A stretch of DNA of 64,000 nt from Rhodococcus sp. SMB37 (GTDB lineage: Bacteria > Actinomycetota > Actinomycetes > Mycobacteriales > Mycobacteriaceae), in contig NZ_SLVY01000025.1 in the NCBI RefSeq assembly GCF_004345605.1, positions 1 to 64,000 of the forward strand, written 5' to 3'. Below are positions 26,101 through 29,644 of the stretch, in pieces (positions within the stretch are counted from its first letter, which is position 1; the number at the start of each line of letters is the position of its first letter). The notes beneath the pieces are model-generated. The model did no database searches. It worked only from the letters and a program-made list of their open reading frames with translations, and was not told the DNA's origin. The position numbers and the translations under genes are program-made.

Positions 26101-27552
26101 TCACTCCGGGTGCAGGCGCGGAATCCGCACGCGGAAGGTCGAGCCCTGCCCCGGGATGCTGTCGACGTCGACGGTCCCGCCGTGCGCCGCGACCAGGGCC
26201 GCCACGATGGACAGTCCCAGGCCGCTGCCGCCACCGGTACCTCCGCTGCGCGAACGAGAGCTGTCGGTGCGGTAGAAGCGCTCGAACACACGCTCCCGGT
26301 CGACCTCCGACAGCCCTTGCCCGGTATCGGCGACTTCGAGCACTGCGTCGGTGTCGACCGTGCCCACCCGGACCGTCACGGATGCGTCGGCCGGCGTGTG
26401 GGTCAGTGCGTTGGTCACCAGATTGCCGAGGACCTGACGCAACCGGACATCATCCCCCAGCACCTCCGGTGTGCCCGGCCCGTCCAGGACCTCGAGGTCG
26501 ATGGTGCGGTCCGGCGCGACGACCCTCGCGCCGTGCACGGTGTCAGCAGCGATCGCGAGCAGGTCCACGGGCTTGTGCTCGAGCGGGCGTTGCGCGTCGA
26601 GGCGTGCAAGCATCAGCAGATCCTCGACAAGTACGCCCATGCGACGCGATTCGCTCTCGATGCGGCCCATCATCATGTCCGTATCGTTGCTCGCACCCTG
26701 CTTGTACAGTTCGGCGAATCCTCGGATCGTCGTGAGCGGCGTGCGCAGTTCGTGACTCGCGTCGGCGACGAACCTGCGCATCCGTTCCTCCGAGCGCCTG
26801 GCCGACTCCTCCGACGCCTCGGTGGCGGTGAACGCCTCCTGGATCCGGGCGAGCATCGTGTTGAGTGCGACGGACAGACCCCCCACCTCTGTTCTCGGAT
26901 CCGATTCCGGGACACGTTCACTCAGGTCACCGGCGGCAATCGCGGCCGTCGTACGTTCGACCTCCTGCAGCGGGCGCAGGCTGCGCCGAACGGCGAAATA
27001 TCCGGCAACGCCGAGAAGCACGAGCACAATCCCGCCGATCACGAGTTGCAGCACGATGAGTCGGCCGACGAGATCCTCGGTTTCCGACAACGTCAGTGCA
27101 ACCGTGGTGGTGCCGCCGTCCCGGTCGCTTGTCGTCAGTACCCTCCATTCGACGTCGGATCCGTCGGTCGAGCCCACTGTGGTGAGCCCGGCGTCCGGTA
27201 TCGGCAGCAGCTCCGGAGACTCCGACTGGTCGTTGATCAGTAACCGGATCTCGCCGTCGGCATCGGTGAGACGGACATAGAAGGGGCTCGGCGGGCGGCC
27301 TGCTTCCACGGTCTGTGGCAGTGGAGGTAAGGGGCGGGCGCCGAGTGGTTTCGCCCAGGTCTGTGCGGCGTCGTGCAGGTCTCGGTCGAGACGAGAGATC
27401 ATCGACGTCTCGAACGCCGAGGTCACAGCGAACCCCGATGCCAGCAATCCCAGTCCCGCGAGCAGGACCAGAGCCGCGACCAGCTTCAGCCGCAGCGGCA
27501 CCGCATGCAGTCGCGGGAGCGAACGAGACATGCCGGCAGGCCGGGTGCTCAC
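26101..27552 (-). CDS. phoR: sensor histidine kinase, PhoR-like
   Basis: A 483-residue membrane kinase. TM1 is at about 22-43 (LKLVAALVLLAGLGLLASGF), followed by an extracellular sensor region at 44-163 with a P-rich stretch, TM2 at 164-188, HAMP at about 189-240, HisKA with phospho-acceptor His267 (ADASHELRTPL), N box RQVLGNLVTNALTH, G1 VADTGQGL, F box VFERFYR and G2 GGGSGLGLS. The GTG start overlaps the TGA of the response regulator (GTGA). The PhoR name rests on pairing with the PhoP-like regulator; the sensor region itself is not diagnostic. The 3' end abuts the IS605 element's end. Confidence 0.85.
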   Translation of the reverse strand: MSTRPAGMSRSLPRLHAVPLRLKLVAALVLLAGLGLLASGFAVTSAFETSMISRLDRDLHDAAQTWAKPLGARPLPPLPQTVEAGRPPSPFYVRLTDADGEIRLLINDQSESPELLPIPDAGLTTVGSTDGSDVEWRVLTTSDRDGGTTTVALTLSETEDLVGRLIVLQLVIGGIVLVLLGVAGYFAVRRSLRPLQEVERTTAAIAAGDLSERVPESDPRTEVGGLSVALNTMLARIQEAFTATEASEESARRSEERMRRFVADASHELRTPLTTIRGFAELYKQGASNDTDMMMGRIESESRRMGVLVEDLLMLARLDAQRPLEHKPVDLLAIAADTVHGARVVAPDRTIDLEVLDGPGTPEVLGDDVRLRQVLGNLVTNALTHTPADASVTVRVGTVDTDAVLEVADTGQGLSEVDRERVFERFYRTDSSRSRSGGTGGGSGLGLSIVAALVAAHGGTVDVDSIPGQGSTFRVRIPRLHPE

Positions 27553-28259
27553 GCCCGTGGCTCACGCATCACGTAACCGACGCCCCGCAAGGTATGGATC
27601 AGCGGAGTGTCACCGGTGTCGACTTTGCGTCGCAGATACGACACGTAGGACTCCACGACACCCACCTCTCCCCCGAAGTCGTAGTTCCACACGTGTTCCA
27701 GGATCCGGGGTTTGCTCAGCACCGTGCCTGCGTTGACCATGAAATAACGCAGCAACGTGAACTCGGTGGGAGACAGCGAGACCGGCTGTCCTGCTTTGAA
27801 CACCTCATGGGTGTCGTCGTCGAGTTCGATGTCGGCGAACGTGATGCGTGCCGATCGCTCTGACTCCGAGACCTTTCCCGCGCGGCGCAGGATCGTGCGC
27901 AACCGCGCGATGACCTCTTCGAGGCTGAAGGGCTTGGTCACATAGTCGTCGGCTCCGAGTGTCAGCCCCGACACCTTGTCCTCCACAGCATCCTTTGCGG
28001 TGAGAAAGAGGACCGGTGCGTCTATGCCGTCGGCGCGCAGGCGCCGCAACATCCCGAACCCGTCCATGCCGGGCATCATGACGTCGAGGATCACCGCATC
28101 GGGACGGAAGCGGCGGGCTTTGTCGAGGCCTTCCGTGCCACTCGAGGCAGTCTCGACCTCGAACCCCTGGAACTTCAGGCTCACCGACAGCAGTTCGACG
28201 ATGGTCGGCTCGTCGTCGACGATCAGGATGCGGGCTTCGGGCTTGTCTGTCACGTGCAT
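27549..28259 (-). CDS. phoP: OmpR-family response regulator, PhoP-like
   Basis: A 236-residue response regulator. The receiver has D15/D16, phospho-acceptor D59 (AVILDVMMPGMDG), T87 and K109; the winged helix runs from about 140 to 235 (SLSPTEFTLLRYFMVNAGTV, then VESYVSYLRRK). Stretches such as IVELLSVSLKFQGFEV and GVGYVMREPR are as I recall them in M. tuberculosis PhoP, which controls envelope lipids and pH or stress responses. The ATG at 28259 gives the normal N-terminal extension. It is the first gene of a two-gene operon with the kinase and is divergent from the guanidine-riboswitch gene. Confidence 0.88.
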   Translation of the reverse strand: MHVTDKPEARILIVDDEPTIVELLSVSLKFQGFEVETASSGTEGLDKARRFRPDAVILDVMMPGMDGFGMLRRLRADGIDAPVLFLTAKDAVEDKVSGLTLGADDYVTKPFSLEEVIARLRTILRRAGKVSESERSARITFADIELDDDTHEVFKAGQPVSLSPTEFTLLRYFMVNAGTVLSKPRILEHVWNYDFGGEVGVVESYVSYLRRKVDTGDTPLIHTLRGVGYVMREPRA

Positions 28260-28402
28260 ATTGTCGCGTCCACCCCTGGAGTCCCGCTGGAAGTTCGCTG
28301 TGAACTTCCTGGGAGCCGCATGCGGTGAGATTGCCCACCGAATCCTTGCCGCCGTCGATCTCATTTCCTAGCCTGGAGCGATGGTGACCGCATGCCGGTC
28401 TC

Positions 28403-28443
28403 CCGGACGAGCGCACCGTACCCGGCCAGCGACAAGACGGTGC
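28403..28443 (+). promoter_or_regulatory. guanidine-III (ykkC-III) riboswitch
   Basis: The 41 bases follow the class III guanidine aptamer closely: CCGGACGAG, then a GCACCGT/ACGGTGC stem (28413-28419 with 28437-28443, 7 bp, perfect), with ACCCGG and GACAAGACGG between. CCGG 28403-28406 can pair with CCGG 28422-28425 to close the pseudoknot. The Shine-Dalgarno AGGAG (28444-28448) begins right after the stem and the exporter's ATG is at 28457. Control is therefore most likely translational: guanidinium stabilises the pseudoknot and exposes the site. Confidence 0.9.
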
Positions 28444-28456
28444 AGGAGTTGTCGTC

Positions 28457-28771
28457 ATGGCATGGATCGTCCTCGTAGTGTCCGGGGTCCTCGAAGCGGT
28501 ATGGGCCACAGCGTTGGGTAAATCGGCAGGTTTCACCCGACTCACCCCCAGCATCGTCTTTCTCGTTGCGCTGACAGTGAGCATGGCCGGACTGGCCTAT
28601 GCAATGCGCACCCTTCCCGTCGGCACGTCGTACGCGGTATGGGTCGGCATCGGCGCGGCGCTGACCGTCGGTTATGCGATGGTCACGGGCACCGAAGCCG
28701 CATCGGTCGTCAAAATCCTCTTGATCGTCGGGATCGTCGCATGTGTGGTGGGCCTGAAGATCCTGCACTGA
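28457..28771 (+). CDS. gdx: SMR-family guanidinium exporter (Gdx/SugE subtype)
   Basis: A 104-residue four-helix small multidrug resistance protein in the inner membrane. The essential Glu13 lies in VLEAVWATALGKS, and GTSYAVWVGIGAALTVGY is the conserved helix-3 motif. The SugE/Gdx subtype exports guanidinium in exchange for protons as an antiparallel homodimer; a single unpaired gene fits this. The guanidine-III riboswitch upstream gives independent support for the substrate. The start has an AGGAG site adjoining the aptamer. It is divergent from phoP. Confidence 0.93.
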   Translation: MAWIVLVVSGVLEAVWATALGKSAGFTRLTPSIVFLVALTVSMAGLAYAMRTLPVGTSYAVWVGIGAALTVGYAMVTGTEAASVVKILLIVGIVACVVGLKILH

Positions 28772-28813
28772 TCACCGACATGATTCCTGTGTGTCTCGGG
28801 TTACAGTGAACCC

Positions 28814-29644
28814 GTGAAATTGGGGTCCGCGCTCTCGATGCCGCTGCGAGTCGGTCTGGCCGCGGCAGATTCCGCGCTGCTCGTCGCCGAAACGGTCATC
28901 GGCACGATACGCATCGCGGTGTCGCCGGCGACCTATTCGGCGCTGGGCGCGGTCGGACTGAACGACACCCGAGACTCGATCGGGTTACTGCAGCAGGTGT
29001 CGCGGTTGACCGCAGACGATCGCGGGCTCGGGCAGGCCCTCCGCCCCGGCGGACCGCTCGACCGACTCCTCGCGACCGGTGGTCCAGTGGATCGGCTCAC
29101 CGCCCCCGGCGGCCCACTCGAACGCCTCCTCGAGCCTGGAGGAGCGCTCGACCGGCTGACCGTTCCCGGCGGCGCACTCGACCGGGTACTCGCCGACGAC
29201 GGAGCCCTGGACCGACTCCTGTCCGAGGGTGGACTCCTCGACCGCATCACCGCGCCCGACGGCCCGCTCGAACGACTGCTGGCACAGGACGGCGCGGTCG
29301 AGCGCCTCACCGCGCCCGGCGGTTTGGTCGATACTGCACTCCGCCCCGGTGGGGTCATGGAACGCGCACTCGCCGAAGGCGGCACGCTCGACGTGCTGCT
29401 GGCCGAGCGGGGCGCGCTGGAGCGATTGCTCGCCGAGGGTGGCCCGCTCGATCAGATCGTGTCGCTGTCCGAGACCCTCGCGAGCCTCACCCCTGGCATA
29501 GTCCGGATGAACGAGAGCGTCGACACCCTGCAGGAAACCGTCGAGCTACTCCGCAGCGCGGTCGGCCCATTGGGCGACCTCGCAGGCAAGCTGCCCGGGC
29601 GGTGGCTACGCAGCAGCAAGGGAGAACTGCTGCCGCCGTCGTAG
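28814..29644 (+). CDS. decapeptide-repeat protein of unknown function
   Basis: A 276-residue protein I do not recognise. Residues 1-78 contain two weakly hydrophobic stretches (RVGLAAADSALLVAETVIG, then SALGAVGL) and no clear signal peptide. Residues 79-218 are fourteen tandem 10-residue repeats with consensus G-G-x-L-D/E-R-L-L/T-A-P/E. Residues 219-276 form a helical C-terminal part (NESVDTLQETVELLRSAVGP) ending in a basic, hydrophilic tail. The strict spacing suggests a regular solenoid or coil in which L/V/I positions pack inside. The GTG start follows the exporter by 42 bases. It could be a membrane-associated scaffold; no function is claimed. Confidence 0.75.
   Translation: MKLGSALSMPLRVGLAAADSALLVAETVIGTIRIAVSPATYSALGAVGLNDTRDSIGLLQQVSRLTADDRGLGQALRPGGPLDRLLATGGPVDRLTAPGGPLERLLEPGGALDRLTVPGGALDRVLADDGALDRLLSEGGLLDRITAPDGPLERLLAQDGAVERLTAPGGLVDTALRPGGVMERALAEGGTLDVLLAERGALERLLAEGGPLDQIVSLSETLASLTPGIVRMNESVDTLQETVELLRSAVGPLGDLAGKLPGRWLRSSKGELLPPS
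29048..29467 (+). repeat. 14 x 30-nt in-frame tandem repeat
   Basis: Fourteen 30-base units in phase with the reading frame encode the decapeptide consensus GGxLDRLLAP. The units differ by third-position and conservative changes, so the repeat is old and maintained at protein level rather than a recent DNA expansion. Confidence 0.85.

Follow-up and report, generated by a model that had tools for sequence, protein, structure and literature searches.

The gdx Locus and Its Leader

The window, i.e., the whole stretch of 64,000 nucleotides that was analysed, carries on its forward strand a gene for an SMR transporter, preceded by a structured leader that had been described, from the letters of the sequence, as a guanidine-III riboswitch. 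An Infernal search with the Rfam Guanidine-III model, which that preliminary description had proposed as a check, returned a match of 68.1 bits, compared to a gathering score of 36 (E 6.2e-12). The alignment spans the whole model and contains one single-base deletion, and no non-standard pairs are marked in it. The parts of the locus, including a putative promoter, are as follows.

28346..28374, forward strand: putative promoter, TTGCCG (28346-28351), 17-nt spacer and TAGCCT (28369-28374), from its position and recurrence in relatives
28381..28446, forward strand: Guanidine-III riboswitch, full match to RF01763 (model positions 1-67)
28386..28400, forward strand: 5' hairpin (P0), GACCG-CATGC-CGGTC, part of the Rfam model
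28403..28443, forward strand: 41-nt aptamer core, from the positions of its elements and the Rfam match
28403-28411, forward strand: CCGGACGAG, 5' part of the aptamer core, letters found at this place
28403..28406, forward strand: 5' strand of pseudoknot helix P2, CCGG, pairing with 28422-28425
28408, 28409 and 28418, forward strand: predicted ligand-contact bases C6, G7 and G17 in the numbering of Thermobifida fusca, counted from CCGG = 1-4
28413..28419, forward strand: 5' strand of P1, GCACCGT, pairing with 28437-28443 in a perfect 7-bp helix
28420-28425, forward strand: ACCCGG, letters found at this place
28422..28425, forward strand: 3' strand of P2, CCGG, pairing with 28403-28406
28431-28440, forward strand: GACAAGACGG, letters found at this place
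28437..28443, forward strand: 3' strand of P1, ACGGTGC, pairing with 28413-28419
28444..28448, forward strand: Shine-Dalgarno sequence AGGAG, its first base adjoining P1, 8 nt ahead of the ATG
28457..28771, forward strand: gdx-type SMR transporter gene, 104 aa, stop included (PF00893, 70.8 bits)

The 41-base core, the perfect P1 helix and the two CCGG strands lie where the preliminary description had placed them, and its statement that the Shine-Dalgarno sequence abuts the 3' end of the aptamer holds as well, since AGGAG starts on the base that follows P1. The Rfam match exceeds the 41 bases named there because the 5' hairpin is included in it. With a P1 of 7 bp and a P2 of 4 bp, an H-type pseudoknot is possible in the window; the ATG at 28457 lies 13 nt past P1. 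The bases C6, G7 and G17 are named as guanidine contacts in the T. fusca aptamer (PMC5696562; here and below, citations refer to the available excerpts of the papers), and all three are present in the window when counted in that numbering. RF01763 was found once in the 6.2-Mb, 52-contig assembly, and the Rfam models of guanidine-I and guanidine-II had no match anywhere in it. We consider the assignment of this leader to the Guanidine-III class, whose members sense the toxic compound guanidine, secure, and binding of guanidinium by its aptamer would be expected from the class.

Conservation of the Structure

For the comparative analysis, 209 loci were drawn from a collection of 235 by a consensus pattern that allowed up to three substitutions and required a P1 of at least 4 bp. 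Of the 26 loci that missed the pattern, the seven derived from gdx searches were rescanned with Rfam, and three of these carry RF01763; the other 19 came from Rfam matches and do not enter the structural counts. Among the gdx-derived loci, all 11 with two or three substitutions in the pattern are RF01763 according to Rfam. The set of 209 was not deduplicated: the window is present in it twice (L001 and L111), and some named and unnamed loci represent one genome.

Among the 138 distinct aptamers, 548 of 552 P2 pair cells are standard, and P1 is represented by 61 distinct arm pairs; these conservation counts for both helices are limited by the consensus pattern and the P1 rule used for collecting the set. 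P2 differs from CCGG/CCGG in 10 of the 138 aptamers, and in seven of the 10 all four pairs are kept through two-sided changes (TCGG/CCGA, n=2; GCGG/CCGC, n=3; CCTG/CAGG, n=1; CTGG/CCAG, n=1). The remaining three variants lose one pair (L060 and L190) or two pairs (L076), the double loss being perhaps a register error of the search pattern. All 138 distinct aptamers of this set, which was pre-selected by consensus, retain the G-C pair holding G17. Directly ahead of the aptamer, 151 of 187 distinct leaders have a hairpin whose stem is 5 bp or longer, compared to a mean of 75.6 (sd 5.6, largest value 89) in 50 matched shuffles of the same stretch. As an extreme of variation, a guanidine-III riboswitch of Gordonia effusa (L043:2890-3020) has an insertion of about 20 bases that separates the CCCGG strand from GACAAG, and still scores 46.6 bits.

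Distribution and Linkage to SMR Genes

Of 301 genomes sampled within the family, 205 contain RF01763, including at least 17 of the same genus besides the window's own; in the class-wide sample the count is 175 of 394 genomes, and 60 of 138 genera are represented. The best named matches came from Rhodococcus and close genera, in agreement with the setting that had been proposed for this DNA. A protein-based scan yielded 553 relatives of gdx; among the best 80 of these, 76 carry the riboswitch, 73 by the pattern and three by Rfam only, and the other four (L037, L038, L103 and L110) have no RF01763 match over the cut-off. Conversely, an SMR gene starts within 70 nt past an uninterrupted P1 in 199 of the 209 aptamer-bearing loci (a set that is not deduplicated and counts the window twice), and in 174 of these 199 the distance is 11-20 nt. 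The riboswitch is real, correctly identified and widespread, and it is an ordinary member of a class that has already been described.

Several relatives show other arrangements. Two tandem SMR frames stand behind the riboswitch in L168, L172, L206, L210 and L214, unlike the single gene of the window, and possibly represent heterodimeric pairs. An arginase-family gene starts 10-11 nt past P1 in six loci of the same family (L003, L009, L020, L021, L025 and L123); L192 also has such a gene behind the riboswitch, with an unclear start position. The best solved relatives of the L003 protein, 9fek and 7esr, carry the deposition titles putative or probable agmatinase 2; we take both to be guanidinases. 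By this sequence relationship, the guanidine-III riboswitch would precede a guanidinase-like gene in some relatives. Linkage of ykkC-III to speB has already been published (PMC2864571), and the legend to Fig. 2 of PMC12186494 names classes I and II alone for guanidine degradation operons. In two further loci (L143:1074-1334 and L166:1084-1362), the riboswitch is located ahead of a small hydrophobic protein of 87-93 aa that starts with MYDVVQ(I/V)AGSLLILAAFAG and had no Pfam match; the small protein of L125 starts alike (MSDALQILGSLLILAF) and diverges afterwards. The protein of L143 and L166 is a possible unrecognised guanidine-linked membrane protein.

The Transporter

No gene other than the one at 28457..28771 matches PF00893 (SMR) in this genome. 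NCBIfam models rank the 104-aa product of this gene as SugE (98.8 bits), followed by Qac (48.2) and the EmrE family (27.9); it should be noted that the SugE equivalog NF008512 has a cut-off of 126 bits, which this score does not reach, and we therefore call the protein Gdx-like after its nearest relative and its riboswitch, and not a SugE equivalog. Among solved structures, Gdx-Clo (6wk5) is matched with E 2.4e-20, versus 4.1e-7 for the best EmrE entry. The alignment to this guanidinium/proton antiporter is gap-free over residues 1-102, and, counted in it, E13 is retained together with W16, S42, Y59 and W62, which we take to be pocket residues of Gdx-Clo. The differences are that Gdx-Clo comes from another bacterial group and that the protein encoded here has V63 for T63 in the WTGIGA stretch. 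In Gdx-Clo, E13 is a ligand of guanidinium, and the protein also transports substituted guanidinium ions and guanidinyl compounds (PMC7695847).

The SMR gene is thus closer in sequence to characterised Gdx than to Qac or EmrE and is of the Gdx subtype by this measure, because its best relatives are of this type and the riboswitch is linked to 76 of the 80 best-matching gdx loci. Guanidinium is its likely substrate. The claim that the riboswitch gives the transporter a firm substrate assignment is supported as to type, and is somewhat too strong as to substrate, considering the missed SugE cut-off and the acceptance of substituted guanidinium by Gdx-Clo. The finding of one SMR gene points to a homodimer with dual topology.

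Predicted Guanidine Metabolism and Neighbouring Genes

Apart from the gdx locus, the genome contains a guanidine-carboxylase-like cluster on another contig (C3, 389409-397036; L238). It consists of genes for a TetR-type protein, two DUF1989 proteins, a carboxyltransferase without the biotin-carboxylase part, a 2OG-Fe(II) oxygenase and a sodium:solute symporter (SSF). The best NCBIfam models for the DUF1989 genes are UAAP1 and UAAP2, and the UAAP2 match stays under the cut-off of that model. A rule that requires Asp separates guanidine carboxylase from urea carboxylase (PMC11410670); in the alignment, the C3 carboxyltransferase has Asp at the specificity position, which is one of the two residues in the rule, and a full-length carboxylase on contig C5 has Asn there. 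Guanidine-releasing enzymes of the ethylene-forming type are dependent on 2OG. The best solved relative of the C3 oxygenase is 9ovh (E 1.6e-58), labelled as an ethylene/succinate-forming enzyme, and two entries with the same label, 5lun and 6cf3, are weak matches. Since enzymes of the ethylene/succinate-forming type can release guanidine (PMC12186494), the C3 cluster might be a source of guanidine in addition to breaking it down. A search of the genome for arginase-family genes was negative. Because of this result and the Asn of the C5 carboxylase, export had been considered as the sole route for guanidine; this reading was dropped when the second, Asp-bearing carboxyltransferase and the two DUF1989 genes were found.

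Directly after gdx, at 28814-29644 on the forward strand, lies a gene for a 276-aa repeat protein with GGxLDRLLA-like repeats, for which NCBIfam gave no match and Pfam gave a sub-cut-off match only. In 33 of the 199 SMR-linked loci it lies behind gdx in the same orientation (the 199 include the two copies of the window, which were absent from the database searched). We do not claim this protein as a functional partner of gdx, because its gene is on a different contig from the riboswitch in two (G176 and G186) of the 17 same-genus genomes that have both places listed. On the other side of gdx, a divergent pair of genes for an OmpR-type response regulator and a histidine kinase occupies 26101-28364 on the reverse strand; similar regulators were seen in 17 of the fetched loci and similar kinases in 13. 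A plasmid search returned eight records with partial matches, none of which covers 80% of the query, and revealed nothing special about the window.

Putative Promoter and Leader Length

Counted from the first hairpin base, a TANNNT box begins at -14, -13 or -12 in 58 of the 168 leaders whose 5' hairpin has a stem of 4 bp or more, and outside -17 to -9 no window of three offsets contains this motif in more than eight leaders. The TAGCCT of our locus starts at -17, slightly farther than the mode. Both TTGCC and TA(A/G)CCT are found in seven of 15 other same-genus leaders (L008, L010, L013, L016, L024, L027 and L223), and the other eight differ. Strict scans for a sigma-70 consensus promoter and for a terminator had no match in 28200-28900.

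From the usual spacing of the -10 element, transcription in the relatives would start about where the hairpin itself begins. The start in the window is predicted at about 28380-28382, probably near 28381, which is five bases ahead of the hairpin and the exact beginning of the Rfam match. The leader would then probably be about 75 nt long and almost all riboswitch; this reading rests on the placement of the TANNNT box 12-14 bases before the hairpin in the 58 relatives.

Mode of Control

We consider it very probable that this locus combines a guanidine-III riboswitch with a gdx-type gene under guanidinium ON control. In the proposed mechanism, the riboswitch would make up nearly the entire 5' leader of gdx, with transcription beginning about 5 nt before the 5' hairpin. 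Rising guanidinium would bind in the C6/G7/G17 pocket and stabilise the triplex pseudoknot of P1 and P2, and the stabilised fold would make the adjoining Shine-Dalgarno sequence usable, and/or block the entry of a ribonuclease into the message; Gdx would then be made, and guanidinium would be exported in exchange for protons. RNA family, conserved structure, gene linkage and, by sequence, transporter subtype are direct observations in this scheme, and the ON direction is likely from the riboswitch class, the literature and the logic of an exporter.

Published accounts are consistent with this scheme. Guanidine is proposed to stabilise the triplex pseudoknot, destabilise competing structures and expose the ribosome binding site, in a paper that regards the mechanisms of classes II and III as less firmly established (PMC5696562). 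In PMC12186494, class III is predicted to act as a translational ON switch, with control of mRNA stability too, and guanidine-III is described as protecting messages from RNase E scanning, with a citation of Richards and Belasco 2021. The translational ON control predicted in the preliminary description agrees with both papers; an alternative fold sequestering the Shine-Dalgarno sequence was not found.

Specifically, duplex energies and ensemble models revealed no conserved anti-Shine-Dalgarno element in the leaders of relatives. Pairing of CUCC (28400-28403), a pyrimidine run ahead of the aptamer, with GGAG (28445-28448) was considered as a candidate and rejected as a general mechanism. The complementarity is weakly specific, with a mean duplex energy of -6.92 compared to -6.60 for permuted pairings (z -2.2; 189 distinct leaders of the 209, relatedness not removed), and the mean pairing probability exceeds 0.5 in 10 of 172 leaders folded with 16 nt after P1 and in seven of 180 folded with 40 nt. 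In the window, P0 together with P1 (-17.0 kcal/mol) is preferred over the anti-Shine-Dalgarno pairing together with P1 (-12.0). Longer complements were seen by eye in L002 and L015.

Changes above 0.1 in the modelled exposure of the Shine-Dalgarno sequence have no consistent direction: with 16 nt after P1, 74 of 172 leaders gain exposure and 37 lose it, and with 40 nt, 24 of 180 gain and 92 lose it; these folding models are weak, since they do not include pseudoknot energies, the ligand, the ribosome or the cotranscriptional order. The same limit applies to the window, where the Shine-Dalgarno bases are 0.61-1.0 unpaired in the unbound model. When 47 nt after the Shine-Dalgarno sequence are included, the bound model closes three of its four bases (0.16-0.32) against the coding sequence, contrary to ON control; with shorter tails there is little change (0.77 to 0.79) or opening (0.76 to 0.99). 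Translation is slightly favoured over mRNA protection as the probable level of control.

Alternative Explanations

A chance resemblance or a decayed relic has a negligible probability. No supporting point for it was found, and it is ruled out by the Rfam score (E 6e-12), by the occurrence of RF01763 in at least 17 further genomes of the genus and by the shuffle control, in which the core pattern, present once in the window, was absent from all 100 dinucleotide shuffles; the reading frame is intact as well. It is unlikely, too, that the physiological ligand or substrate is a substituted guanidine or another cation and not free guanidinium. Class III also binds methylguanidine and aminoguanidine and, less tightly, ethylguanidine and agmatine (PMC5696562), and Gdx-Clo carries substituted guanidinyl compounds (PMC7695847). 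However, the bases in the pocket correspond to the guanidine class, the G-C pair holding G17 is invariant in the pre-selected set, and a guanidine-carboxylase-like cluster is present in the same genome.

The aptamer may act mainly as a roadblock at the 5' end, its guanidinium-stabilised fold shielding the message from RNase E scanning without any switch that masks the Shine-Dalgarno sequence. We regard this as possible, if clearly not the leading reading, in line with the lack of a conserved anti-Shine-Dalgarno element and of a consistent change in exposure, with the report of this mode for guanidine-III (PMC12186494, citing Richards and Belasco 2021), with a leader that probably starts at or near the 5' hairpin and so places the fold at the extreme 5' end, and with the presence of an RNase E/G-family gene in the genome. 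The last two points make mRNA protection a serious alternative to exposure of the Shine-Dalgarno sequence, or a partner of it. On the other hand, the Shine-Dalgarno sequence adjoins P1, and the tight placement of the SMR start, 11-20 nt past P1 in 174 of 199 loci, points to selection acting on translation initiation. A hairpin at the very 5' end might also limit the entry of RNase E regardless of the ligand. The opposite direction, in which the ligand represses the gene because the bound pseudoknot next to the Shine-Dalgarno sequence obstructs the 30S subunit, is very unlikely. Pseudoknot riboswitches in which the bound fold obstructs initiation do exist (preQ1 and SAM-II), the gap between P1 and the Shine-Dalgarno sequence is zero bases, and the bound model, run with 40 nt after P1, makes the Shine-Dalgarno sequence less exposed in 92 of 180 leaders and, with a longer tail, closes three of its four bases in the window. 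Yet that model ignores the ribosome and depends on the amount of coding sequence included, the published reading of the class is ON (PMC5696562), and an exporter shut off by its own substrate makes little sense.

Comparison with Known Systems and Implications

The closest structural reference, the guanidine-III (ykkC-III) aptamer of T. fusca, shares with the window the pseudoknot core, the pocket bases and the place upstream of an SMR gene, whereas its ribosome binding site is 16 nt from the 3' end of the aptamer (PMC5696562) and that of the window begins on the next base. The guanidine-III riboswitch that acts through RNase E (Richards and Belasco 2021, via PMC12186494) belongs to the same aptamer class, and no overlapping expression platform that is conserved was found among the relatives examined here; compared to it, the leader of the window opens with a hairpin. 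The occurrence of ykkC-III in Gordonia and other Actinobacteria has been noted (PMC11117675), and among the papers listed in searches of open-licence PMC full text, none is devoted to a guanidine riboswitch of Rhodococcus.

As a tentative generalisation, which we hold to be less probable than its opposite, guanidine-III riboswitches of actinomycetes may work without classical masking of the Shine-Dalgarno sequence: the whole leader would consist of a 5'-terminal hairpin and an aptamer that begin where transcription starts, a separate expression platform would be absent, and guanidinium would lock this 5' structure against decay and/or present the adjacent Shine-Dalgarno sequence. The zero-base gap between the aptamer and the Shine-Dalgarno sequence, together with a leader that would be nearly all riboswitch, makes this locus a clean system for the study of class III action without a visible anti-Shine-Dalgarno element. 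For the organism, the sole SMR gene found in the genome gains guanidinium as a likely substrate, instead of the default "multidrug" label.
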